In this document: piece after piece, positions 2,822-41,027 of the stretch
Layout: each line of letters opens with the position of its first letter
Position numbering within the stretch: position 1 is the stretch's first letter
NCBI RefSeq assembly: GCF_003075075.1
Contig: NZ_QCYM01000017.1
Span: 1-64,000 of the forward strand
Source of the DNA: Labrenzia sp. 011
GTDB taxonomy: Bacteria; Pseudomonadota; Alphaproteobacteria; Rhizobiales; Stappiaceae
Direction: 5' to 3'
Length of the DNA stretch: 64,000 bases
Notes under the pieces: model-generated
Database searches by the model: none
What the model saw: only the letters and a program-made list of their open reading frames with translations
Told to the model about the DNA's origin: nothing
Translations under genes and position numbers: made by a program

Positions 2822-3337
2822 TCAGGCCTTCAGCTTGAATTCTTTGCCCGCCGTGCCGCCGAAAGTACGCAGGCCATGGACGAGGATCTGCAGCGTGAAG
2901 GCCAGGAGACCGACAGCCAGCAAGGAATAGAAAGGCCACATCAGCGGCGCCCAGGGGCTGACCATCTCGACTTCCATCGTGGCATAGGCGCGCCAGGCCC
3001 GCTTGATGGCAAACCACGACAGGCCGCCGTAGATTGGCGTCAGCAGTATCACGAAGACGGTTCCCTCGATGATCTGCCGCAGGCGGTCAGGGAGCTTCTG
3101 CGCAAGGAAGTCGATCCTGACATGGGCATCTTCCCGAAGGGCGTAGGCCGCCCCCAGAACGAACAGGGTGCCCGTGCACATGTATGAAATGTCGAAGGCC
3201 CAGATCGTCGGCGCGCTAAAGACATAGCGCGCCGCGACTTCGTAGATCATGGAGACGACCAGGATGAGGGTCACAGCCTCTGCGACAAGGGAAAGCGCCT
3301 TCGAAAAGACATCGACTGTTTTGAACAACCCTGACAT
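2822..3337 (-). CDS. dctQ: TRAP transporter small permease (DctQ-type)
   Basis: A 171-residue protein with four predicted membrane helices: near residues 14-38, 50-65, 88-108 and 130-155. The DctQ signature FVLGAAYALREDAHVRIDFLA (residues about 56-75) is clear. It is the small membrane subunit that assembles with the adjacent large permease; together they form the secondary transporter fed by the periplasmic DctP protein. It lies between dctP (20 bp upstream) and dctM (4 bp downstream) in one transcription unit. Start ATG at 3337 gives the standard length. Confidence 0.93.
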   Translation of the reverse strand: MSGLFKTVDVFSKALSLVAEAVTLILVVSMIYEVAARYVFSAPTIWAFDISYMCTGTLFVLGAAYALREDAHVRIDFLAQKLPDRLRQIIEGTVFVILLTPIYGGLSWFAIKRAWRAYATMEVEMVSPWAPLMWPFYSLLAVGLLAFTLQILVHGLRTFGGTAGKEFKLKA

Positions 3338-3357
3338 ACCGGCCGCCTCCCGCCAGC

Positions 3358-4419
3358 TCAGTTCTGGTTCCGGATCAGGTAGCTGCTTTCGGCAGACCAG
3401 CGATCCAGGAACGTCATGTAGTCGGCAAGAAGTGCGGACATTTCAGGCTTGCCGGCTTCCTTTTCGCTCGCCGCCTTCTTGGTGATCCAGTCCTTGCCGG
3501 CTGCGGACAATTCAGTCACGAATTCCGGGTCGAGCGTGATGATCTCGTTCTTGCCGTTCTGGTAGGTCGCGAGCGCCTTGACGTCTTCGGAATAGAAGTT
3601 CAGCAGCGCCTGCATGGTTGTCAGGTCGGCCGCCTTCTCGATCAGGGGCTTCAGGTCGTCGTCGACGGCATCCCAGGTTTCCTGTTTCAGGACGACTTCC
3701 CACAGGAAGGTCGGCTGATGGACACCGGGAACGATGATGTATTTCGCGGCTTCATGGAAACCTTCCGGCAGGTTTCCGGACGGCGGGCCCCATTCGATCA
3801 GGTCAACGCCCTTGCGCTGCAGAAGCGTGTAGATTTCTCCCGGCGGAACCACGGTTGGCACTGCGCCGAAATATTCGCTCATGACTTCGGCCCATGGGCC
3901 GGACGTGCGGTACTTGAGACCTTTCAGATCCTCCGCGGTACGCACCGGCACGTTGGAGTGCGCCATGATTTCGGAGGAGCCGATGCCGACGATCAGGCTC
4001 TTGAAGCCTTCTTTCGCGCGCAGGTCGTAGAGGGCTTCCTTGCCGCCGTCCTCGTAGATCCAGGTGATATAGGCTTCCGGGCCCATGCCGCCCGGGAACC
4101 CGGCGAACACCGCATTGATCGGATCCTGGTTGACGAGATAGCTCGGCGTCGAATGCCCGGCCTGGATCACCCCGTTACTGACACCTTCATAGACCTGAAG
4201 CGCCGGGACCAGGATGCCGGCCCCGAACGGCTCGATCTTGACCCGACCCTGGGTCAGGACGTCGACATTGTCGGCGAACCGCTCGACGAAATTCACGAAG
4301 TAGGGGGAGCCTTCGGGAACCGAGGTGGGAATCTGCCAGGTAATGTCCTGGGCCGCCGCGGGCATTGCAGCTGTCAGCAGAGTGGCTGCGAGCCCCCATG
4401 CCTTCAATCGATCGAACAT
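3358..4419 (-). CDS. dctP: TRAP transporter periplasmic solute-binding protein (DctP-type)
   Basis: A 353-residue secreted binding protein. A Sec signal peptide covers residues 1-23 (LAATLLTAAMPAAAQ with cleavage after AAAQ or AMPAAA). The ATG at 4419 follows an AGGAG ribosome site about 8 nt away. The conserved carboxylate-binding Arg of TRAP receptors fits LKYRTSG at about residue 170, followed by the family block VPTVVPPGEIYTLLQRKGVD, where the typical Trp sits in IEWGPP. It captures the substrate in the periplasm for DctQM. It is the first gene of the leftward operon dctP-dctQ-dctM-DHDPS-like. In context the ligand may be hydroxyproline or a betaine-like amino acid, but this is inferred from neighbours only. 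Confidence 0.93.
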   Translation of the reverse strand: MFDRLKAWGLAATLLTAAMPAAAQDITWQIPTSVPEGSPYFVNFVERFADNVDVLTQGRVKIEPFGAGILVPALQVYEGVSNGVIQAGHSTPSYLVNQDPINAVFAGFPGGMGPEAYITWIYEDGGKEALYDLRAKEGFKSLIVGIGSSEIMAHSNVPVRTAEDLKGLKYRTSGPWAEVMSEYFGAVPTVVPPGEIYTLLQRKGVDLIEWGPPSGNLPEGFHEAAKYIIVPGVHQPTFLWEVVLKQETWDAVDDDLKPLIEKAADLTTMQALLNFYSEDVKALATYQNGKNEIITLDPEFVTELSAAGKDWITKKAASEKEAGKPEMSALLADYMTFLDRWSAESSYLIRNQN

Positions 4420-29312: not shown

Positions 29313-30428
29313 TCACTTTTGGGCAGTACCCTGCAGGTGCGTGGTCGCATCCGTCTGGCCGCCTTTCAATGCGGAAATGGGCATGATGCCCACGTCCGAT
29401 CCCCGGGACAGGACACCAAGGTCAAAGCTCGAATAGTTCAGGCTACCATAGGTCCGCACATGGAACAGCTTGCGATCGAGGTCCGAGAGGTTCGTCCAGC
29501 TCGTGAATTCCGTGGCATAGGCTTCCGCGCTCCCCGACGAGAGACCGGCAACCTCCAGGTGACCGCCCCCCTCTTCCGGATAGTCGATGGTCACGCCCCG
29601 GGCGCGGTCGAAATTGTTCATGACGTGGGCCAGGGTCACGACCGCCTCGTCGGGCGAGGCGGCCTTTTCCGTGAACTGGGCGTAATAGGCCGCGCGCACG
29701 AAGCGGCCCACGGAGGTGTTCGACGCCGGCAGACCGGCGGTTGCGATGCCCGAGTCCGGCTGAACGGCATGATAATCGCCGAATTGCGCGCTCGTCTTGT
29801 CCACGTTGGACAGGAACGTGTAGTTGTCCAGATTGGTCAGGTGCCAGGGAAACTCCGGCCCGTTGGTCATCACCCCGACGGGATTGTCATAGAGCGACAT
29901 CTTTCCGAGATTGAACTCGACCACGAGCGACGCGCCGCTGGCGTCGTGAACAACGTAATGGAAAGGCGATTCGACACCTCCCAGCAGCGCTAGAGGCTCA
30001 AGCAGAACCGGCTGGTCTTCCAGTGCCTTCCTGACCTGCGCGACCGTCGCGAACTGGCTGAGGGCCCAGGAGCCGAGATCCGACGCGGAAAGCACTGCGG
30101 CCGTCGTCTCGACGGACTGCTGCTTTCCGCCGGCAGACGGGTAGGAAAGCAGACTGAAGGTCAGGCCCTGCTCGTTCATGCCTTCAAGGGGCTTGAGGTC
30201 CTGATAGGTCAGGGGATTGTCGGGGGTAGGCCTGCGGCCGGGCATGGTGATGCCGATGAAGGCGTAATTGCCGGTGAACTCAAGATCGGGATGTCCCTCG
30301 ATTCGGGACTTGTAGGCCAGTGCCTTCGGGAAGAAGACAATCTGGTAGGGAAGCTCCATCGTGAGTTCCAGTGTTCTTCCAAGGTAAACCTTGCCCGCGG
30401 CATCGCGGTAAATAAGTGATGTGCACAT
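29313..30428 (-). CDS. Choloylglycine hydrolase / penicillin V acylase family enzyme
   Basis: A 371-residue N-terminal-nucleophile hydrolase. The catalytic Cys is residue 2, exposed by removal of Met (MCTSLIYRD). R18 (YLGRTLE) and E21 take the usual Arg and Asp/Glu positions. The oxyanion Asn is in MTNGPEFPWHL and the second Arg in GRFVRAAYYA. It hydrolyses a linear amide such as penicillin V, conjugated bile acid or acyl-homoserine lactone. No signal peptide precedes Cys2, so the enzyme is cytoplasmic, unlike most Gram-negative relatives. It is 143 bp downstream of the efflux operon and may follow it transcriptionally. Confidence 0.9.
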   Translation of the reverse strand: MCTSLIYRDAAGKVYLGRTLELTMELPYQIVFFPKALAYKSRIEGHPDLEFTGNYAFIGITMPGRRPTPDNPLTYQDLKPLEGMNEQGLTFSLLSYPSAGGKQQSVETTAAVLSASDLGSWALSQFATVAQVRKALEDQPVLLEPLALLGGVESPFHYVVHDASGASLVVEFNLGKMSLYDNPVGVMTNGPEFPWHLTNLDNYTFLSNVDKTSAQFGDYHAVQPDSGIATAGLPASNTSVGRFVRAAYYAQFTEKAASPDEAVVTLAHVMNNFDRARGVTIDYPEEGGGHLEVAGLSSGSAEAYATEFTSWTNLSDLDRKLFHVRTYGSLNYSSFDLGVLSRGSDVGIMPISALKGGQTDATTHLQGTAQK

Positions 30429-30571: not shown

Positions 30572-32080
30572 TCACCTGACCGTCGTGAGCGGTGAGGTGG
30601 AAGATGTCATCGCGCCCAGAGAGAACGCCAGAGACGCGGCGGCAACCAGAGACGCCGCATGGGCCTCCGCCTGCGCCTGGCGGGCATCCAGAAGGCCGCT
30701 GTCGGCAAGCGTGACATCCGTGATCGTGCCCAGACCGTTTCGGAACGCGTCGAATGCCGCATCAAAGGTCAGGCTTGCGGCAGCTCTCAATTCGGTCGCC
30801 GCGGCATAGGCCTCCAGAGATGAACGCAGGTTGTCGGACGCAATCACGATCTCGCGCATTGCCGTATTGCGCGTCTGCTCGAAGCTCGCCTGGGCCGAAG
30901 CCGTGACGGATTGCGCCCTCTTTCGGCTCGCGCTTCGAAGACCTCCGTCGTAGAGTGGAATGCTAACGCCGACGAAAACGCCGGTCGACCCTGTCTGGAC
31001 CCCGACTTCCGGCAGGTTGCCGACCTGAAAACCGGTCTGGTTGGAGGCGGCGATGCCGCTCAGATAGACTTTCGGCAGAAACTCGGCGGTCGCGGCCCGT
31101 TCGTTCGCCTCGCTGGCCTTGACGGCGGCGTAGCTGGCCAGGACATCCGGTCTGCGCGCCAGGGCCGTTTCGATGAGCTTGTCCGTCGGAAGGGCACTGG
31201 CGCGAGGCAGGCGACGGTCGGCGACGGAGACGATCCTGATTTCGGACCTTGGCGAAATGCCGACCGCGCCGATCAGCTCATGATAGGCGTCACGGCGCGC
31301 ATCCACCGCCTGTACGCGCCTGAGCCTGGCTTGCGCTGCAAGCTGGTTCGCCTGGGCCACTTCGATTTTCGTTCCGGTCCCATTCTTGAATCTGGACTCC
31401 GCCGCGGCCATGACTTCCCGACTGTTTCGCACTGCCTGGTCGGCGATCTTCACGTTGGTCTGCGCAAGGTCGTAGCGGTAATAGGCCTGGGTCACACCGT
31501 AAATCAGTGCCTGATGGGTTCCGTTGAAGCCCACATTCGCTGCGAAGGCATTCTGCTTGGCCGCATCCCGCCACGCCTGGCGCTGGCCAAAGTCGAAGAC
31601 GAGCCATTGCAGCGCCAGATTTGGGGTCGCCCCCTTGACCGTGGTCGTCAGGTCGAACGTTCCGCCCTCGATGTCGGGAACCGGGGTGACGACTTCGCTC
31701 CAGCCGCCGATCACGTTTCCGGTCAGGACCGGAAGGAACGTCGCCTCCACCATGCCGACAGACAGGGCGGCCTGACGCGCCCTTTCCCATGCGACACGGG
31801 TCGAGGGATGGTTCTTCTGCGCCAGATCGATCAGTTCCGCCAGTCCATAGGTCGCATTCACCTTCACTTCCCTGGAGCTGCCTGCAACTTCCGGATTTGC
31901 CGGAACGGAGAAGTCGGATGAGGCGCCGGTGCTGTCCTTCGGGTGCCAGGCCTGGTCGGGAGCGGAAGGCGCATCGCGGTAGGAATCGGCGACGCAGCCG
32001 GAGAGAATTGCGGCAACGCACAGGATCGGCCCGAATTTCGGCGCTCTTTCTCGGACTGACTGGCAATGCCGACGCATCAT
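30572..32080 (-). CDS. Outer-membrane efflux lipoprotein, TolC/NodT family (MdtP-like)
   Basis: A 502-residue outer-membrane channel protein. The signal ends in the lipobox AAILSGC, so the mature N-terminal Cys24 is lipidated. Two OEP domains follow: first half with YGLAELIDLAQKNHPSTRVA and WERARQAALSVG, second half with TDKLIETALARRPDVLASYA and VGVSIPLYDGGLRSAS, the standard TolC repeats. Long coiled-coil helices alternate with short strands. It completes the tripartite efflux pump formed by the two proteins encoded upstream. Gap of 44 bp to the FUSC gene. In E. coli mdtNOP the order is the same. Confidence 0.93.
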   Translation of the reverse strand: MMRRHCQSVRERAPKFGPILCVAAILSGCVADSYRDAPSAPDQAWHPKDSTGASSDFSVPANPEVAGSSREVKVNATYGLAELIDLAQKNHPSTRVAWERARQAALSVGMVEATFLPVLTGNVIGGWSEVVTPVPDIEGGTFDLTTTVKGATPNLALQWLVFDFGQRQAWRDAAKQNAFAANVGFNGTHQALIYGVTQAYYRYDLAQTNVKIADQAVRNSREVMAAAESRFKNGTGTKIEVAQANQLAAQARLRRVQAVDARRDAYHELIGAVGISPRSEIRIVSVADRRLPRASALPTDKLIETALARRPDVLASYAAVKASEANERAATAEFLPKVYLSGIAASNQTGFQVGNLPEVGVQTGSTGVFVGVSIPLYDGGLRSASRKRAQSVTASAQASFEQTRNTAMREIVIASDNLRSSLEAYAAATELRAAASLTFDAAFDAFRNGLGTITDVTLADSGLLDARQAQAEAHAASLVAAASLAFSLGAMTSSTSPLTTVR

Positions 32081-32124: not shown

Positions 32125-33945
32125 TTAGCTCCGCAATTCCGCTGCCGACCTGGAAAGTCGCGGAACAGAAGACGGGGCTGACGGGAAATTTCCGAGGCTG
32201 CTCAGAACGGAATGGGCTTCCTCACCGGACATGCTACCGGTCCCGAGATCGATTGATAAGTCCCTGAGCTGATGAATCTCCCGATTCAATCGCGAGACGA
32301 CATCGTCTGACGGCTTCAGGCTGGCGGGTTCGAAGAAAATCGTGTCCATCAGCCTCCCCGCTTCGGCCAGTTCCACGTTCGCCTGAGTGACCTCGTCGAA
32401 CCGCAGCGCGGGCGATGCCTGCGACGCCGCGCGGTCGAGGGAGGCAATCGCGGCCGATATTCTGGCGACGACTGTCTTGAAGGCACTCCTGGGCCAGACC
32501 TGTGTAAACATGAGATAGATCGCCAGATTGCCGACCAGGATTCCGATGATCCGGTCGCTTGCCTGGGAGAATTCGAAACTCGGTCCGAAATCGTTGAGGA
32601 CCGTGAGCAGGAAAGCGAGGGCGATCTGCACGCCTGCGTAGTTGATCCGTTCGTCTCCGGACGAGACCCAGGCACCGATGAAGACACCGCAGAAGACCAG
32701 TGCCATAAGGCTGCCGATCGAGGTGATGTGCGGCATGACGAGGACCAGCGCGGCAACGCCGAGCGCCGCACCGATCAGGCAGCCGCCAATTCTGAGCAGC
32801 AGCTTGTGAACCGTCTCGCCGACACTCCCCAGGGAGGCGACGTAGCAGGTGATCATGGCGGTGTGAATGCCGTTCCACTGAATGCCGGTATAGATGAGAT
32901 AGCAGAGAATTGCGGCCGAGGCGGTCTTCAGCGCAAAGCGCAGATGATCGGGATTGCTGAGGGCGTCTTCAGCGAACAGGGGCGGCATGACAAATTCGGG
33001 AGTGGCGCCGCCATCGGCGTTGCCCAGCCTGTCGAGGAGCTGCCACAACGTCGAGCCATGACCATGCGTGCCGGACTCCGGATCGGCCACGGGCGGCATT
33101 TCGCCTGCCTCGATGCGATCGGCCGCGGCGGTCAGGGCATGCTTCAACTCCGCAACCTCATCGGCGGGAGCATCCGGTTTCAGGCCCGCGACGGCCAGAA
33201 GGATCCGACAGCTGGTTTCAATGGCTCCCGTCAGCCAGAGCGTCTGAGCCCCGGGGGCCAGATGCAGCAGCCGGGCCAGCTTCATCCGCTGCAGCGCTTC
33301 CTGGTTCCCCTCGCCGAGAAGGTCGGCGAGATCCTCCGGGGCCGTGCCTGTTGCGATCCGGTCAGCCGACAACCGCAGCCGTTCCACGATCTTCTCGCGC
33401 ACCAGTCTTTGCGGCGACGGGCCGGCAAGCAGGCTGAACACGAACATCACCGCCATCGGTACCGCCACCATTTTCCAGGCCATCAGCAGGCCCTGGTCGG
33501 CGACTTCTCCAACCGGCACATCGGTGACCAGGGTCAATATGAAGGCAATGATCAGGCCGATGATGGCGGCCTGTTCTCCCAGGGTGGTGGCGGAACTGAG
33601 GTAGAGGAACACGAACGAGGCCGTGAACATGGCGGCAAGCCGCATCGCGGGACTGTCTATGGTGGCGTTGATCAGGGGGATCATGCCCGCCACCACCAGG
33701 GTCGCCAGCAGAATGAGGCCGATCCCCATGACGCAATTGTTGAAGGCGTCCCGCTTCATCAGGAAAATCACGAGGTAGAGACTGATCGACGCTTCCGGAA
33801 CCCGGTAGGTCATCGAGACCGCCGCGGCCAGCGCGCACACGAGCGCCACCTGCCAGGTCAGCTGGAAACGGCCGGGAAAGGGTGCCAGATCCCGAAGAAT
33901 CCGCTGCAGAAAAGCCGGTTCATGCACCTCAGCAGGCCTGGTCAT
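32125..33945 (-). CDS. Fusaric-acid-resistance-type inner-membrane exporter (FUSC family, MdtO-like)
   Basis: About 606 residues. Two membrane halves of six helices each (for example VALVCALAAAVSMTYRVPEA near 35-55 and LVLVMPHITSIGSLMALVFC near 390) are separated by a soluble region, the typical FUSC/AaeB layout. The second half shows RFALKTASAAILCYLIYTGI and the ITCYVASLGSVGETVHKLLL motif. The chosen start (ATG at 33945) overlaps the HlyD-like gene by 17 bp; a GTG nine codons earlier is also possible. It exports aromatic acids or related compounds using the proton gradient together with the periplasmic adaptor and outer-membrane factor. Confidence 0.92.
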   Translation of the reverse strand: MTRPAEVHEPAFLQRILRDLAPFPGRFQLTWQVALVCALAAAVSMTYRVPEASISLYLVIFLMKRDAFNNCVMGIGLILLATLVVAGMIPLINATIDSPAMRLAAMFTASFVFLYLSSATTLGEQAAIIGLIIAFILTLVTDVPVGEVADQGLLMAWKMVAVPMAVMFVFSLLAGPSPQRLVREKIVERLRLSADRIATGTAPEDLADLLGEGNQEALQRMKLARLLHLAPGAQTLWLTGAIETSCRILLAVAGLKPDAPADEVAELKHALTAAADRIEAGEMPPVADPESGTHGHGSTLWQLLDRLGNADGGATPEFVMPPLFAEDALSNPDHLRFALKTASAAILCYLIYTGIQWNGIHTAMITCYVASLGSVGETVHKLLLRIGGCLIGAALGVAALVLVMPHITSIGSLMALVFCGVFIGAWVSSGDERINYAGVQIALAFLLTVLNDFGPSFEFSQASDRIIGILVGNLAIYLMFTQVWPRSAFKTVVARISAAIASLDRAASQASPALRFDEVTQANVELAEAGRLMDTIFFEPASLKPSDDVVSRLNREIHQLRDLSIDLGTGSMSGEEAHSVLSSLGNFPSAPSSVPRLSRSAAELRS

Positions 33946-34966
33946 GATGGATGATCGTATTGGCGGAAGCACCGACCCGCATCAGGTCGGCCGGGGGATC
34001 GATGAGGCGAATGCGCACCGGAAAGCGCTGCTGTATGCGCACCCAGTCAAGGGACTTGGGAACGATCGGCAGGCTGATCGGCAAGTCGAGAAGCTCTTTT
34101 GAACTGACCCCCCAGCCGATCCCCTCGACAACACCCCTGATTTTGGTCTTGCGGCTGGAGAGCGCATAGACGGTCGCGCAATCGCCCACCGAAATCTCCG
34201 GCAGGCTGGTTTCCAGATAGGCGGCGGAGGCATACCAGGTATCGGTCTTGATCAAGGTGAAGATCCGCTGGCCCGGCAGCACATATTCGCCCGAGGAAAT
34301 GTTGAGGCCGACGATCCGGCCATCGTGGGGGGCGCGTATCGTCGTGTTGGAAAGCTCATGCTCGGCCAGGGCCAGTGCCGCCCGCCTCGCGGTTACCAGG
34401 GATTCGGCGGCCGCTTCCGTGCGGACCAGCGCCTCGGCCGCCTCGAGCTGTTTCAGCGCCTCATTCAGGCTGACCTGTGCATCCTTGCTTGCCGAGCGCG
34501 CGGTATCCACCTGCTGGGCGGAAACATACCCCTTCTCCTCCATGGGCAGGAGGCGGTTCAGCGTCTGGGTGGCCAGTTCCAGATTGGTTTCGGCACGCTG
34601 CACCTGTTCCTCGGCAATGGCGACATTGGCGAGCTGCGCCTGGATGTTCTGTGCCTGATCCGTCTGTTCCGCCAGTGCGATCTGGAGATCCGCCCGCGTT
34701 TGCTCCACGGCGAGCCTATAGGGCGTCGGATCCAGCTCGAACAGGACGTCCCCCTTCTTGACGAAGGCGTTGTCCCTGACAGGCAGATTGACGATCCGGC
34801 CGGCGACCGAAGGCGCAATGTGAACGACGTCCGCGTTGAGAATGGCATCGTCCGAAGCCGAGACTTCGGAAGAGGCCCGGACCCCGAGGACGACAGCCGC
34901 GACGGCGGCCGAAATCAGGATCAGGCTGACAAGTGTTCCGGCGATTTTCGCGTTTCTGCTGGTCAC
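33929..34966 (-). CDS. HlyD-family periplasmic adaptor (EmrA/MdtN-like)
   Basis: A 345-residue adaptor when started at the GTG at 34966, which has AGGAGG 11 nt upstream. The longer frame from 35056 runs through the preceding gene. One N-terminal helix (IAGTLVSLILISAAVAAVVL) anchors it. Barrel-sandwich lipoyl halves are at GRIVNLPVRDNAFVKKGDVL and IRAPHDGRIVGLNISSGEYV, separated by a coiled-coil hairpin (about 75-190). It bridges the FUSC exporter and the outer-membrane channel. It sits 20 bp after the small YtcA-like gene and overlaps the FUSC gene. Confidence 0.93.
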   Translation of the reverse strand: MTSRNAKIAGTLVSLILISAAVAAVVLGVRASSEVSASDDAILNADVVHIAPSVAGRIVNLPVRDNAFVKKGDVLFELDPTPYRLAVEQTRADLQIALAEQTDQAQNIQAQLANVAIAEEQVQRAETNLELATQTLNRLLPMEEKGYVSAQQVDTARSASKDAQVSLNEALKQLEAAEALVRTEAAAESLVTARRAALALAEHELSNTTIRAPHDGRIVGLNISSGEYVLPGQRIFTLIKTDTWYASAAYLETSLPEISVGDCATVYALSSRKTKIRGVVEGIGWGVSSKELLDLPISLPIVPKSLDWVRIQQRFPVRIRLIDPPADLMRVGASANTIIHHDQAC

Positions 34967-34986
34967 GGAATTCGGTGCCTCCTGGC

Positions 34987-35265
34987 TCAAAAGACGGTCA
35001 GCTCGATGAGCGCGGCAATCCCGGCGACCAGAGAGAGGTACATGGCGCCCCGCCATCGGAGGATGTTTTCAAGACCGGTCGCCACGAAGAGGATGCGCAG
35101 GACGACGGTCAGCAGGACCGCGGCCGCGACAGACAACAGCCAGGAGGGAAAGTAGCTTCCGAACATGGGAACACTCGGCGCCGCAGCCTGAGCACCGCCG
35201 CCGGAAAACACCCATAGGAGGAGAACAGCGGGCACGATGCGGGTCCGGGCTCTCCGTTCCTTCAT
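34987..35265 (-). CDS. ytcA: YtcA-family small membrane protein
   Basis: A small protein of about 92 residues from the ATG at 35265; GTG at 35271 or ATG at 35277 are alternatives, and GGAAGG lies immediately before. It has a hydrophobic leader (RIVPAVLLLWVFSGGG), the block SVPMFGSYFPSWLLSVAAAV, and a second and third helix ending YLSLVAGIAALIELTVF. This matches the pattern of E. coli YtcA (P.IGAYYPSWFF...), which precedes mdtNOP. The lipobox Cys of the E. coli protein is replaced by Gly here. Its function in the pump is unknown. First gene of the four-gene leftward operon. Confidence 0.78.
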   Translation of the reverse strand: MKERRARTRIVPAVLLLWVFSGGGAQAAAPSVPMFGSYFPSWLLSVAAAVLLTVVLRILFVATGLENILRWRGAMYLSLVAGIAALIELTVF

Positions 35266-35339
35266 GAACACGTCCATCCTTCCATTGCACTGCGCTTCCC
35301 GGTCACGGAAACCGGGGGGATAACCAGCCGTTTCGACAA

Positions 35340-36413
35340 TCAGTTGTCACCGAAATACTCCTTGCGAAGATCGTTGATTACACCCTCTTCATGGGCGCCC
35401 ACGACCTCTATCGTCATCGCCCGCCTGAGGGAACTGCCGTGAGGAAGACCGAAGCCGTATTTCTCCGGCTGAAAAATCGGCCCGACCACCTTGAGACCCG
35501 CCTGCGGATTTCTGTACAGGTAATACTCCAGAACCGGGGCATCACCAATGATCGCTTCCACCCAGCCGTTTTCCAGAGCCTCGACGGAGGCCCTGAGGTT
35601 CCTGGTGGAGATCGAGGTGATGATGGAATCATGCGCGAATTCCTCCGCGCTGCTGCCTTCGGAAACCGCAACCGTTCTGCCGGCCAGATCGGAGACGTCG
35701 TTGATGGTTCCGGTCAGCGTCAGGCTTGTCATGACACTGGTGACCGAAGAGGTGACATAGGCCATGACGGCGATCCCGCACACGAGCCACAGCGCCTGCC
35801 AGATCCGGCCCACCCAGCCGAACAGGTTCTTGCGTTTCGGTGCCTTGCCCGAAGTGACGACGGACATGACCGAATAGAAGCTCTCGGCGATGCCCTCGGT
35901 CCATTCGCGCGGAAAGCCAGTGTCGAACTTCCGGTCGAAAAGGGTCATGCCGATGGTCGAGACAACAATGATGAACGCAAGCCAGGCATAGGCCTTGAGA
36001 TAGCCTGCATCCCTCAGCCCCGCGACCACGCCCCAGAAGCCGACGCGCGGTGTTTCGCTGGCCATGATACGCAAACCTGCGTCGAACCACGGCTGTGTAA
36101 AGTCGAAACGGGCGGCGCGCTTCTCGGTGATGGTCAGATTGGTGACGGCAAGATCGACATTCTCGGCCGCAACCGCATCAACCAGCTGACCAACGGTTTC
36201 GAAAGGCAGGTAATCGTATTCGACGCCGATCTCGCCGGCGATATATTCCCACAGGTCGACCGCCATGCCTGAAACTTCGTCCCCTTCGATCATGACAAAG
36301 GGAGGACTTTCGTGAATACCAACCAGAATTTTCCGGGCCGGGTCCTCCTCCTGCGCGAAGGACAATGTTGAAAAGCAGATTAGCGCGGCAAACGCGGCGA
36401 GAACTCGCAGCAT
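35340..36413 (-). CDS. Prokaryotic ionotropic glutamate receptor-like ligand-gated channel
   Basis: A 357-residue protein from the ATG at 36413 (frame extends to 36470, but the signal peptide MLRVLAAFAALICFSTLSFAQ starts here). Order: binding lobe S1 (about 25-125), helix M1 (YAWLAFIIVVSTIGMTLF, about 142-159), pore loop (about 174-190), helix M2 (about 204-226, WQALWLVCGIAVMAYVTSSV), lobe S2 (about 235-355). This is the GluR0 arrangement. The ligand carboxylate Arg is expected in ITEKRAARFDFTQPW and the amino-group Asp is D291 in IIGDAPVLEYY, so an amino acid ligand is likely. The potassium filter GYG is replaced by TSG (SVVTSGK), so ion selectivity may differ. Stands alone between the efflux operon and a sugar operon. 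Confidence 0.88.
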   Translation of the reverse strand: MLRVLAAFAALICFSTLSFAQEEDPARKILVGIHESPPFVMIEGDEVSGMAVDLWEYIAGEIGVEYDYLPFETVGQLVDAVAAENVDLAVTNLTITEKRAARFDFTQPWFDAGLRIMASETPRVGFWGVVAGLRDAGYLKAYAWLAFIIVVSTIGMTLFDRKFDTGFPREWTEGIAESFYSVMSVVTSGKAPKRKNLFGWVGRIWQALWLVCGIAVMAYVTSSVTSVMTSLTLTGTINDVSDLAGRTVAVSEGSSAEEFAHDSIITSISTRNLRASVEALENGWVEAIIGDAPVLEYYLYRNPQAGLKVVGPIFQPEKYGFGLPHGSSLRRAMTIEVVGAHEEGVINDLRKEYFGDN

Positions 36414-36767: not shown

Positions 36768-37727
36768 TCAAAAGCGGTATTCGTTGACCTGCCGGTAGGT
36801 GGCATTCGCCCTCAGGACGGCAGAAGGAAAATGTGACCGGTTCGGACTGTCCGGCCAGGCCTGGGGCTCCAGACAGATTCCCGAGCGTTCCGGATAGGGG
36901 ATGCCCAGATGACCGGCGTGGCTGCCGCTCAGCTTGTAACCGTCATACAGATGAAGGCCCGGCTGGGTTGTCCAGAGCTCCATTTCGACATCGCCGCAGG
37001 AAAGCGTCGCGGCATGCGCAAGAGGGCCCGCCTGAAGCCTGTGCAAGGGATAGGTGTTGTTGAACTTGTGCTTCGGTAAACCACGGGGAGATGTGAAATC
37101 GAAGGGCGTTCCCGTGACCGGAGCGATTTCTCCCGTCGGAACAAGCGTGTCCTTGGACGGCAGATAGTGGTCTGAAAATATTGTCAGCTTGTGCGCGTCG
37201 GTCGATGGGCTGCCGGCAAAATTGAAGTAGGGATGATGGCAGATGTTGACGATCGTGTCCCGGTCACAGGCCGCTTCGAAGGACAGCCTGAGCGTGGCCT
37301 GATCGATGATTTCGTAACAGGCCACAACATGCAGGCTGCCGGGATAGCCGGCTTCGCCGGCAGGGCCGGTGAGTTCAAACGAGACCTTCGCGGCACTCCG
37401 TTCCTTAACGCTCCAGATCCGGCTCCAGTATCCGGCATTTCCCCCGTGGAGATGGCGCTCCCCCCGTTCGTTGCGCTCCAGATCGACCGTATGTCCGTCA
37501 AGCCGGAAGCGGCCGTTGGCGATGCGGTTCGCATACCGGCCGATGACCGCCCCCATGAACTGGCGATCCTCACGGTATATGTCCGGATTTACATAGCCCA
37601 GGACAAGCGGAGCCGCGCAATCAGACAGGCGCAGGTCGCTCAGGCTCGCCCCATGGGGAATGACGGTGGCGCTCAACCGGCCATTGCTTATCGAAATCGC
37701 TTCATTGCCATTGGTCGTCGTCATCAT
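36768..37727 (-). CDS. Aldose 1-epimerase (mutarotase, GalM family)
   Basis: A 319-residue enzyme from the ATG pair at 37727/37724; the longer frame to 37862 is not family-like. The GalM landmarks are GRYANRIANGRFRLDG, ERHLHGGNAGYWSRIW (catalytic-loop His), NICHHPYFNFAGS (the His-His pair), and the glutamate general base in RSGICLEPQAWPDSPN. It equilibrates alpha and beta anomers of an aldose in the cytoplasm. It is the last gene of the seven-gene operon that starts at the GntR gene at 43.3 kb; with two TIM-barrel isomerase/epimerase genes it indicates catabolism of a free sugar. Confidence 0.92.
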   Translation of the reverse strand: MMTTTNGNEAISISNGRLSATVIPHGASLSDLRLSDCAAPLVLGYVNPDIYREDRQFMGAVIGRYANRIANGRFRLDGHTVDLERNERGERHLHGGNAGYWSRIWSVKERSAAKVSFELTGPAGEAGYPGSLHVVACYEIIDQATLRLSFEAACDRDTIVNICHHPYFNFAGSPSTDAHKLTIFSDHYLPSKDTLVPTGEIAPVTGTPFDFTSPRGLPKHKFNNTYPLHRLQAGPLAHAATLSCGDVEMELWTTQPGLHLYDGYKLSGSHAGHLGIPYPERSGICLEPQAWPDSPNRSHFPSAVLRANATYRQVNEYRF

Positions 37728-37921
37728 CAGCCTGATTTCCAGATCCGCGAACCGCAAGCCGGTCCCGGCCTGACCGCCTGCGCGAGATCTTGCAGAGGAA
37801 GGAAAGGGCCGGCCGACCGCCGGCGAGGACGCCCCGAGACGGAACGGGAGAGAACCGGTCATTCCGAATCTCGGGGCGCCGCACGGGCCGGGTCCTTCAA
37901 GTCAAGGTCCCGGCCACATCT

Positions 37922-38734
37922 TCAGCAACTCAGAAATTTTCTGGCGGTTTCGGAGCTTTGCACAACCCACTCGTCCTCCCGGGCAGCAAGCCGTTCCGGA
38001 TCCGCCTCCCACGGCAGCCATTGTTCGAGAATGGTGTTGATGTGTCTTTCATCCGGTTTCACCAGATCCAGTACGGCCGGGATGTCCATCATGCCCTGAC
38101 CGAGCGGCGTTCCCACCACGGCAAAGCCCACCCCGTAGGGATCGACCGCAAAGCGGCAATCCTTCAGGTGAAGATTGATGGCATAGGGCGCCAGAAGGCG
38201 CACGGTTTCCATCGGCCATTCACCTGCGCAGATCGAGTTTGCAACATCAAGACAGACGCCGAAACTGTCGGACTCCAGATGCTGTACCAGCGACACGAGA
38301 CTGGAGGATTCCAGGGCGAAGTGGTTTTCGAAGGCTATCCGGACATTCCGGTCGGACAGGGATTGCTGGAAGGCTTTCAGCTCCGCAACGATCCGGTCCT
38401 GGCCCTTTGCCAGATCATCCGCGTCGAGGGAAACGCGGATCAAGGTGCAATCCAGCTGCGCGGCATAGTCGAGATAGGTTTCGAGACTGGCAGTGTCCGT
38501 CGCGCCCGCAAGCCCGAGTTCAATCGCCATGCCCCTTGATCTGGCTTCCCGCGCAAGCTCGTCGATCTCTCCCTTGTCACGTTCGTGCAGGGGAATGTTG
38601 TCCGCAAACTGAACGAGCCGAAGCCCCGCCCGTTCGGCGCGCTCGAGCAAGTCGAGCAGGCCGAGGGGATTTTCGGGAATCCGGTCCTTGAAGCCGCATG
38701 ACCAGCGGTAACTGAAACTGCCGAGTCCAATCAC
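37922..38734 (-). CDS. Sugar phosphate isomerase/epimerase-like TIM-barrel protein
   Basis: A 270-residue AP-endonuclease-2-type TIM barrel. The open frame is longer, but a GTG at 38734 with TGAGG upstream begins VIGLGSFSYRWSCGFKD, as expected for the first barrel strand, and it starts 7 bp after the stop of the neighbouring gene. Metal-ligand candidates are Glu in IAFENHFALES, Asp and His in VCLDVANSI and NLHLKDCRF. The usual final Glu has become part of TILEQWLP. It probably isomerises or epimerises a keto sugar or sugar acid. Which reaction is unknown; it is distinct from the paralogous barrel encoded just upstream. Confidence 0.82.
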   Translation of the reverse strand: MIGLGSFSYRWSCGFKDRIPENPLGLLDLLERAERAGLRLVQFADNIPLHERDKGEIDELAREARSRGMAIELGLAGATDTASLETYLDYAAQLDCTLIRVSLDADDLAKGQDRIVAELKAFQQSLSDRNVRIAFENHFALESSSLVSLVQHLESDSFGVCLDVANSICAGEWPMETVRLLAPYAINLHLKDCRFAVDPYGVGFAVVGTPLGQGMMDIPAVLDLVKPDERHINTILEQWLPWEADPERLAAREDEWVVQSSETARKFLSC

Positions 38735-38741
38735 GACGACC

Positions 38742-39701
38742 TCACAAAAGCGACGCGATGAGCTTGTTGATGTTGCGGGCCGGAACCCCGTCGGCCACCA
38801 TCGCGTCAAGCTCCTGCATGGAGATCTTGCTGCGCAGCTTCTCCAGATTGTCCATGATTTCGAAGGTGGCCGCGATCGCCTCGACGTTGTCGCCATTCCG
38901 GGTGAAGACGTCATAGGCGAACCAGCCGTCCCACCCCATGCGATCGATGTAGTAGAGAAGCTCCAGCGTCTCCCACAAATTCACCGATGCCGGCAGCATG
39001 TCCCAATCGGCACCACGGTCGTTGTCATTGAAATGAACGTAGAAGAGACGGTCGAGATCGTTGCCGAGGGCGGCTTCGGCGGCCGGGGTTTCATTCGCCA
39101 TCAGCGCATGGCCGACGTCCATCGTCACGCCGAGGTTCGCGGCCCCGATTTTCTCGCAAAGAACGAGCGAGCGCGCCATGGTGGGCAGAATGATCCGGTT
39201 GCGCGATTCAAAGGGCTTGTATTCGATCGAGATGCGCACGTCGTCCCGATGGGCGGCCGCGGCTTCGAAAGCTTCTACAAGCCATCTCCACTGGTCCTGG
39301 TAGTCGACTTCGAACGGATAATCCCAGCCGTCGATCAGGGGACAGACGGAGATCATGTTCGCACCGAATTCGGCGGACATGTCCATGGCGGTCTTCATGT
39401 ATTCGATGGCCGTGTCGCGAACCTTCTTGTCGCGCGATGTGACGGATCCCTTCCGGTACATGTCCTCCGACTTGACATTGACGTTGACCGCCGAGACCGC
39501 CAGCCCGCTTTTCTTCACCAGATCCACGGCTTCGCCGCCATGTCCCAGGTCCTGCGGATACACGGGTTCCACTCCGTCGGTGCGCGGTATCTTCAGCGCG
39601 AGTTCCAGCCGCTCCTCAAGCTCGCGATGCTCCTGATAGACGTGAAAGCGGTCGTTGTAACGCCCGATCGTGCCGAGCAGTATCGAGTTCTTGAAAGCCA
39701 T
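38742..39701 (-). CDS. Sugar isomerase/epimerase-like TIM-barrel protein
   Basis: A 319-residue TIM-barrel protein of the xylose-isomerase-like / sugar-epimerase family. Residues that fit the metal site are Glu in RISIEYKPFES, Asp and His in GVTMDVGHALM and the His/Asp pair in FYVHFNDNDRGADWD. The N-terminus LLGTIGRYNDRFHVYQEHRE and the C-terminal DGWFAYDVFTRNGDN are characteristic of a subgroup often placed with sugar transporters; I cannot name a proven substrate. It follows the TRAP large permease by 36 bp and precedes a second, shorter barrel protein, so the two may catalyse successive steps or form a specialised pair. Confidence 0.82.
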   Translation of the reverse strand: MAFKNSILLGTIGRYNDRFHVYQEHRELEERLELALKIPRTDGVEPVYPQDLGHGGEAVDLVKKSGLAVSAVNVNVKSEDMYRKGSVTSRDKKVRDTAIEYMKTAMDMSAEFGANMISVCPLIDGWDYPFEVDYQDQWRWLVEAFEAAAAHRDDVRISIEYKPFESRNRIILPTMARSLVLCEKIGAANLGVTMDVGHALMANETPAAEAALGNDLDRLFYVHFNDNDRGADWDMLPASVNLWETLELLYYIDRMGWDGWFAYDVFTRNGDNVEAIAATFEIMDNLEKLRSKISMQELDAMVADGVPARNINKLIASLL

Positions 39702-39737
39702 TGTTCTTACTTTCTTCGCGGTTGTCGGGCTCGCGCC

Positions 39738-41027
39738 CTATCGGTTGTAAATGAGGTCGGGAATGGTGGTCACCAGCTGGGGGAACAGCATCAGAAGACA
39801 CAGCAACGCCAGGTGGACGCACAGGAACGGGAGGATCGCCGTCATCATCCTGCCGATCTTCACACCGGCAATGCCACCGGCGACATAGAGCGACAGACCG
39901 ACGGGCGGGGTGATGGTTCCGATCATCAGGTTGATGGACATCAGCACGCCGAAAAACAGCGGATCGATGCCGAAGGCCTTGATGACCGGCAGCAGAACCG
40001 GAGTGAACACGATGATCGCCGATCCGCCATCGAGAAAGCATCCGGCGACAAGAAGCAGCAGGTTGATCAACAGCAGCAGCACCAGGACGCTGGACACGTT
40101 TTCCGAAAACCACCCGGCGATCGCCGAAGGGATCTGTTCGATTGTCAGGACATAGCCAACGAGGCTGGCCGCGCCGACAATCGCCATCACGAGGGTGGTA
40201 TCGCGGGCGGTCCGGAACAGGATGTCCGGCAGGTTCGCAATCCTGAGTTCACGGTAGGCGATGCCGATCACGAAGGCATAGGCAACGGCGACGGCCGCAG
40301 CTTCCGTCGCGCTGAACGCGCCGGTCCGGATCCCCCCCACAATGATCCCCGGAAGCAGCAGGGCCGGCAGGGACTGAAGGAAGACCCGTGCGAACCCCTG
40401 TCTTTCGGAGGTTTCGGACTCCACTTCCCTTTTCGCCACCGGTTTCGAACTGAAGTAGATGTACCCCATCAGGCCAAGGCACATGAGAATGCCAGGGACG
40501 ATACCTCCGAGAAAGAGGCCCCCTATGGATACGCCGGACATGACGCCATAGAGAACCAGGGGAATTGACGGCGGTATCGTGGAGCCGATGACACCCGAGG
40601 CAGCGACGACGGACGCCGCATAGGCGGGATCGTAGTTCCGGTCCTTCATGCGCGGAATGATCGTGGAGCCGATCGCGGCGGTGTCGGCTACGGACGATCC
40701 GCTGACACCTGCGAACATGGTCGCGGCAAGAACGGCAACATGGGCAAGCCCGCCACGAATCCAGCCCACCAGGTAGAAGGCGAAATCGATGAGCCGGCGG
40801 GTGATGCCGCCCGCCTCCATGAGCTTGCCCGCAAGCAGGAAGAACGGAATTGCAAGCAGGGGGAAACTGTCGATGCCCGCGTAGACCCTCTGCAGCACCA
40901 ACTGCGCCGACATCAGGCCGTCACTTGTCAACAGCACGATACAGGCCGCGATCAGGGCGAAAAAGATGGGCACGCCGAGAAGCAGCAGCACGAAGAACGT
41001 GCCTGCGAGAATAGCCAGTGCCGTCAT
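39738..41027 (-). CDS. dctM: TRAP transporter large permease (DctM-type)
   Basis: A 429-residue membrane protein with about twelve helices. It starts TALAILAGTFFVLLLLGVPI, then shows the first-repeat motif AATMFAGVSGSSVADTAAIG and the conserved ASGVIGSTIPPSIPLVLYG, and in the second half INLMIGTITPPVGLSLYVAG. These fit the sugar-acid/C4-dicarboxylate DctM subgroup. Its ATG overlaps the stop of dctQ (ATGA). It moves the substrate captured by the DctP protein encoded upstream. Since the operon ends with isomerases and a mutarotase, a sugar or sugar acid is the likely cargo. Confidence 0.95.
   Translation of the reverse strand: MTALAILAGTFFVLLLLGVPIFFALIAACIVLLTSDGLMSAQLVLQRVYAGIDSFPLLAIPFFLLAGKLMEAGGITRRLIDFAFYLVGWIRGGLAHVAVLAATMFAGVSGSSVADTAAIGSTIIPRMKDRNYDPAYAASVVAASGVIGSTIPPSIPLVLYGVMSGVSIGGLFLGGIVPGILMCLGLMGYIYFSSKPVAKREVESETSERQGFARVFLQSLPALLLPGIIVGGIRTGAFSATEAAAVAVAYAFVIGIAYRELRIANLPDILFRTARDTTLVMAIVGAASLVGYVLTIEQIPSAIAGWFSENVSSVLVLLLLINLLLLVAGCFLDGGSAIIVFTPVLLPVIKAFGIDPLFFGVLMSINLMIGTITPPVGLSLYVAGGIAGVKIGRMMTAILPFLCVHLALLCLLMLFPQLVTTIPDLIYNR

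Follow-up and report, generated by a model that had tools for sequence, protein, structure and literature searches.

Prokaryotic glutamate receptors without a K+ filter are known as Group 2 (Ger et al., 2010; PMC2950845), a group defined by the receptor topology in combination with a P region that is not recognized as a K+ filter. The functional work found on bacterial receptors concerns the GYG-type GluR0 of Group 1, which, according to PMC13099474, has an outside-N/C topology and is a K+ channel active in Synechocystis. For a receptor of Adineta, PMC3483616 indicates that the filter sequence alone does not fix the selectivity. The receptor gene described here carries the filter TSG followed by Lys or Arg (TSG[KR]); no description of this class or of its gene context was found in the open-access literature, including the available parts of PMC3483616 and PMC6385376.

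The gene is located in the window, i.e., the whole analyzed stretch of 64,000 nucleotides of Labrenzia sp. 011 (NZ_QCYM01000017.1, positions 1 to 64,000). The following features were assigned to it:

35340 to 36413, minus strand: glutamate-receptor-like channel gene, ATG start, stop codon included, 357 aa (ORF, Pfam, PDB matches, subfamily alignment)
36354 to 36413, minus strand: probable signal peptide, residues 1-20 (hydrophobic N-terminus, from hydropathy only)
36054 to 36332, minus strand: S1 half of the ligand-binding domain, residues 28-120 (Pfam, PDB matches, best 2pyy with 4.1e-31)
36117 to 36119, minus strand: R99, expected contact for the ligand alpha-carboxylate (63 of 63 subfamily members; role as in PMC2950845)
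35934 to 36008, minus strand: M1 transmembrane helix, about residues 136-160 (hydropathy)
35844 to 35891, minus strand: P-loop, about residues 175-190 (pore profile-profile match to GYG-type bacterial receptors)
35844 to 35855, minus strand: filter T187 S188 G189 K190 (T in 59, S in 49, G in 63, and K/R in 60 of 63 members)
35727 to 35807, minus strand: M2, corresponding to eukaryotic M3, about residues 203-229, ending with TSSVTSVMT (hydropathy, alignments)
35346 to 35708, minus strand: S2 half of the ligand-binding domain, residues 236-356 (Pfam, PDB matches)
35541 to 35543, minus strand: D291, expected contact for the ligand alpha-amino group (62 of 63 members; role as in PMC2950845)

The preliminary description of this gene had proposed the order S1-M1-P-M2-S2, the retention of the ligand-binding Arg and Asp, and the filter SVVTSGK with TSG replacing GYG. 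The layout was borne out by the translation, Pfam, hydropathy, alignments, and a pore profile match; both binding residues are in place, and the filter covers residues 184-190 (S184-V-V-T187-S-G-K190). SBP_bac_3 (9.7e-19, split round an insert) and Lig_chan-Glu_bd (1.4e-9) were matched, and Lig_chan scored 25.5 bits over residues 145-248, which is under its cut-off of 30.8 bits. In the hydropathy profile, the N-terminus is hydrophobic and two membrane spans are apparent, with peaks close to residues 150 and 219. No hydropathy peak over 1.2 was obtained for the P segment, whose position is taken from the alignment. A scan for promoters and terminators between 34900 and 36800 was uninformative (1 and 2 sites vs. 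0.5 and 2.5 in shuffles), and no Rfam match was obtained at the gathering threshold between 28000 and 42000.

The closest solved structure by sequence is 2pyy ("ionotropic glutamate receptor bacterial homologue"), which we take to be NpGluR0 of Nostoc punctiforme. This likeness extends over both lobes of the binding domain, which is all that the 2pyy chain (228 aa) comprises. Glutamine-binding proteins were also among the closest solved structures, and Slr1257 (1ii5), presumably GluR0, was matched at 1.5e-19. A soluble binding protein of an amino acid ABC transporter was ruled out, since the lobes are separated by approximately 115 residues that include two membrane spans.

Both S1 and S2 are homologous to the binding domains of glutamate receptors and SBP3 proteins, with the conserved Arg in S1 and Asp in S2, and two membrane helices and a P-loop lie between them. 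GluR0 shares the two-helix pore between S1 and S2 and the expected topology, but it has GYG and conducts K+ (PMC13099474), whereas the TSG[KR] members lack GYG; at the place of the Group 1 motif TVGYG, the window protein has TSGK. With eukaryotic ionotropic glutamate receptors and plant GLRs, it has the Lig_chan pore family in common, and in a weak match TSSVTSVMT corresponds to TASLTSILT of plants. It differs from them in lacking an amino-terminal domain and M4, since S1 begins at about residue 28 and S2 forms the C-terminal end; in a weak alignment, its filter region is three residues longer than that of GLR3.4. On this domain make-up, the window protein is a prokaryotic ionotropic glutamate receptor of the Group 2 type, with which it shares the order S1-M1-P-M2-S2, the invariant binding Arg and Asp, and a P region unlike that of K+ channels. 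Because the receptor falls in a group described in 2010, the absence of GYG alone is no novelty. The main text of PMC2950845 gives no filter motif; what is added here is TSG[KR] as a coherent subfamily with its signature and tree grouping, its domain profile, and its gene context. The preliminary description, although right about architecture, binding residues, and non-GYG filter, had overlooked the known Group 2, the subfamily signature, the Lys/Arg residue, and the gene cluster.

After removal of matches spanning <280 residues or <250 profile positions and of identical cores, 113 distinct full-length homologues were classed by their filter using regular expressions. Three proteins first labeled "other" (L076, L082, and L122) were moved into TSG[KR] on overall pore similarity before the tree counts, and L127 stayed in "other" despite a loop similar to that of the xGQ class. 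The TSG[KR] group comprises 63 of the 113 proteins. Position 190 is occupied by Lys in 41 and by Arg in 19 of them, the exceptions being Glu, Thr, and Ser. Further conserved pore residues are R194 (57/63), K195 (56/63), and G199 and G202 (63/63 each). By this comparison, TSG is the signature of a conserved subfamily and not a peculiarity of a single gene, and the nearly invariant Lys/Arg that follows it may be as important as the lost GYG. The other 50 proteins carry GYG (14), xGQ/ATQ (7), TQA (6), NGGF (5), GHPH (3), xGPF (3), or NASF (2), and 10 are unclassed. The six further classed non-GYG filters, together with the ten unclassed ones, are found in Pseudomonadota and one cyanobacterial receptor, and in the tree four of the six types each cluster as one group. 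In the receptor ORF of L036 (G040:C1:624000-638000), the P-loop region is a proline/basic-rich stretch unlike the other rows. The residue at position 34 (Tyr in 38, His in 14, Arg in 6, Phe in 3, and others in 2 members) could not be linked to a known ligand contact, and the prediction of ligand specificity from single residues was dropped.

A maximum likelihood tree was calculated from the binding-domain columns only, with the pore columns removed (quick search, LG+G4, no bootstrap). All 63 TSG[KR] members are located on one side of a branch with an SH-aLRT support of 95, and the filter type therefore follows the binding-domain lineage. The tree requires at least five changes between GYG and non-GYG, or three when only strongly supported branches are counted, which suggests that the filter has probably changed repeatedly. 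Within TSG[KR], the pore is better conserved than the binding domain; the mean pairwise identity amounts to 68.5% for the P-loop and 69.4% for M2 in comparison to 53.1% for S1 and 47.6% for S2. Compared with four close relatives (L004, L005, L006, and L051; 76-84% identical), pN/pS was 0.18-0.24 for the whole gene and 0.15-0.19 for the pore, which is thus under purifying selection.

For a domain survey of the subfamily, 43 spread members were chosen from the 63 and scanned with Pfam (E<=0.01). SBP_bac_3, Lig_chan-Glu_bd, and Lig_chan were matched in all 43 and Ion_trans_2 in none, whereas the two GYG homologues that were scanned had matches to both Lig_chan and Ion_trans_2. The P-loop of TSG[KR] is on average only 12.4% identical to that of the 14 GYG homologues. 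In view of these two results, it was reasonable to suggest, as had been done earlier, that the channel may lack potassium selectivity. A profile of the 14 GYG pores finds KcsA at 1.5e-15. In PDB searches, the pore of the window protein as a single sequence had no match at E<=10, and a profile of 45 TSG[KR] pores gave nothing significant; band 3 was best (0.079), followed by the K+-channel-like Lmo2059 (0.10) and GLR3.4 (0.11), which are about level, so that this search decides no pore type. The TSG[KR] and GYG bacterial pore profiles align with each other (hhalign, probability 97.9, E 3.7e-13, 111 columns), and the two pores are therefore homologous. Judged by these profiles, the TSG[KR] pore has diverged from that of K+ channels. 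Concerning the filter register, K190 sits where 28 of the 50 non-TSG[KR] proteins have Gly in the MAFFT alignment and on the Tyr of GYG in the hhalign alignment.

At E<=1e-25, the order yielded homologues in 66 of 397 genomes; the corresponding figures were 11 of 385 for genomes of the class and 28 of 398 for the phylum. The TSG[KR] type, assigned by score (>420 bits), is present in 36 of the 397 order genomes, and among the 11 class genomes only the window's own has it. Within the genus, a strong match over the full length was obtained for 11 of 37 genomes, counting that of the window. Because of its recurrence in the order, the receptor gene is not a product of chance; the low pN/pS marks it as a constrained gene. 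Alphaproteobacteria are reportedly among the Group 2 accessions of the 2010 study by Ger et al. Of the 94 plasmid records with any match, 22 cover at least 80% of the protein, including plasmids of Roseibium, Paracoccus, Agrobacterium, and Salmonella. The Salmonella plasmid homologues cover 81-99% of the window protein and are annotated as transporter substrate-binding proteins; one of them (L059) has TTGK. No near match to the Salmonella receptor gene was found in RefSeq E. coli genomes using megablast, and 50,697 cultured-phage records contained no match to the window protein. The only receptor-bearing viral contig in two viral scans was L189 (IMG/VR UViG_3300020599_000097), which has a TSG[R] receptor gene at 3223-4338. 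It is flanked by a DUF2213 gene and a phage portal gene, with a terminase gene beyond, and lies on the opposite strand; it looks like a phage-carried ligand-gated channel. The C-terminus of the L189 portal protein matches Acb1 (anti-CBASS).

In the window, the receptor gene is followed on the same strand by five genes, the run extending from 36413 to 29313:

34987 to 35277, minus strand: YtcA family protein (Pfam Ytca 9.3e-10; 62 bp downstream of the receptor)
33929 to 35056, minus strand: MdtN-type efflux adaptor (NCBIfam MdtN, 428.3 bits vs. a cut-off of 376, residues 34-375)
32125 to 33972, minus strand: FUSC/MdtO-like efflux permease (Pfam FUSC 3.1e-12; MdtO model 250.6 bits, under its cut-off)
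30572 to 32080, minus strand: TolC-type outer-membrane efflux protein (Pfam OEP 7.2e-59)
29313 to 30428, minus strand: choloylglycine-hydrolase-family linear amide C-N hydrolase, beginning with Met-Cys (Pfam CBAH 2.8e-49)

The listed start of the MdtN-type ORF lies within YtcA; the true one is probably located further inside the ORF. Gene types and order match those of the YtcA-MdtN-MdtO-MdtP efflux system, from which the window cluster differs by the receptor channel before it and the CBAH amidase after it. Upstream of the receptor, the region 36768-41027 on the minus strand encodes an aldose epimerase, two xylose-isomerase-like proteins (Pfam), and a membrane protein (39738-41027) that, by reading alone, was judged to be TRAP-transporter-like; it is perhaps a sugar-use cluster.

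Altogether, 62 receptor loci (0.83 Mb) were examined, which correspond to 61 distinct loci because L012 and L138 are one contig. The immediate neighbors were scanned with Pfam for a selected 50 of 124 proteins plus three further sets of ten; most neighbor families were seen once or twice, and no single neighbor is therefore general. The efflux block is also present after the receptor in L006 (Stappia stellulata) and on a plasmid of R. aggregatum (L051). In L009 and L010, YtcA-MdtN-FUSC comes after the receptor with an MgtE gene in between, directly downstream of the receptor, and no TolC-type match was found there; in L146, FUSC- and TolC-type matches are located upstream of the receptor. CBAH genes were detected in seven of the 62 loci (the window, L006, L009, L010, L011, L051, and L146) with eight copies, in comparison to approximately 0.05 copies expected by chance in 0.83 Mb (from 19 matches in 61 genomes). 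Six of these seven loci are related and belong to one 11-member clade. L146 (tree row L076) is placed elsewhere, so that at least two CBAH associations look independent. The CBAH gene in L011 and one of the two copies in L146 are of a distant type (25-26% identical to the window's). The stretches examined at the other 55 loci contain no CBAH gene, and the 6-kb flanks of the close relatives L004 (84%) and L005 (83%), both among these 55, contain neither efflux nor amidase genes; L171 has the CBAH-efflux set without an adjoining receptor. The link between receptor and amidase/efflux genes is thus neither universal nor obligate.

An Na_Ca_ex exchanger gene is located directly upstream of the receptor on the same strand in five of the 62 loci (L007, L009, L010, L165, and L166; gaps of 4-55 bp), and the respective receptors fall in two separate tree clades. 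The background of this family amounted to 0 to 7 matches per genome in 61 genomes, with two matches per protein in many. The exchanger is ChaA-like; at the corresponding place upstream of the receptor, L008 has only a 62-aa stretch resembling it. A peptidase family M19 dipeptidase, a second type of amide-cutting enzyme adjoining the receptor, is encoded directly upstream on the same strand in L153, L158, and L161 (gaps of 85, 4, and 4 bp).

The reading we favor, with a probability of roughly 0.68, is that of an amino-acid-gated, weakly selective cation channel of the Group 2 type. By analogy with the family, the channel would be formed by four receptor subunits of the inner membrane, their S1-S2 clamshells lying in the periplasm and their P-loops dipping into the membrane from the cytoplasmic side. 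An amino acid held by R99 and D291 would close the clamshell, which would pull on M1 and M2 and open the pore. T-S-G-K/R in place of TVGYGD may provide a short, glutamate-receptor-like filter, through which, judging from filter and gene context only, Na+ and K+ and perhaps Ca2+ would pass with little K+ selectivity. In this way, extracellular amino acids could cause cation entry or depolarization of the cell. Neighboring genes for the handling of Ca2+ and Mg2+ favor cation permeation; a ring in which Lys/Arg is almost invariant speaks against a strong permeation of Ca2+, and the cation selectivity may be reduced. Beside the amidase/efflux cassette, which would cleave and export an amide-linked compound, the receptor might, as far as the gene context suggests, sense amino acids accompanying or freed from that compound.

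Whether the channel is still effectively K+-selective, with TSG as a partial K+ filter and a GluR0-like function in volume and K+ control, has to be considered because T-S-G aligns on T-V-G of TVGYG in the profile alignment and GluR0 itself is a K+ channel. This is improbable, however, as the Tyr and the second Gly are gone, a basic residue comes next in 60 of the 63 members, and neither the Ion_trans_2 scan of 43 members nor the P-loop identity connects the subfamily with the GYG type. The basic residues could point in a different direction, since a Lys/Arg ring at K190 together with a basic P-M2 loop (residues 190-204 carry an average net charge of +3.9 vs. +1.6 in the 14 GYG homologues) might result in an anion-permeable or barely charge-selective pore. 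With an arginine at the Q/R site, animal receptors become less permeable to Ca2+ and more permeable to Cl-. However, the positive-inside rule would also account for a basic loop facing the cytoplasm, the Tyr of GYG points away from the pore and the side chain of K190 may do likewise, and the adjoining exchangers suggest cations; we consider a pore of this kind unlikely.

We know of no channel activity for any TSG[KR] protein, and homologue records are named transporter substrate-binding proteins, both of which would fit a periplasmic amino-acid-binding protein whose membrane part only anchors it or relays a signal. Such a non-channel function is very unlikely, as P-loop and M2 show the highest conservation among the regions compared, G189 is invariant, and the P-loop architecture is retained. 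A broader proposal would treat TSG[KR] as a separate amino-acid-gated class in which a ring of four Lys/Arg residues renders the pore non-selective or anion-permeable, acting as the sensor at the front of amide-hydrolysis/efflux operons and carried on plasmids and at least one phage; taken as a whole, it has a small chance of being correct.

The well-bounded TSG[KR] subfamily with its fixed non-GYG filter, present in Roseibium, Paracoccus, and other isolates, offers direct test objects for the relation between the K+-selective pore of the GluR0 type and the non-selective pores that animal and plant receptors have, and the recurring amidase and exchanger neighbors are concrete leads to the role of such channels in bacteria.
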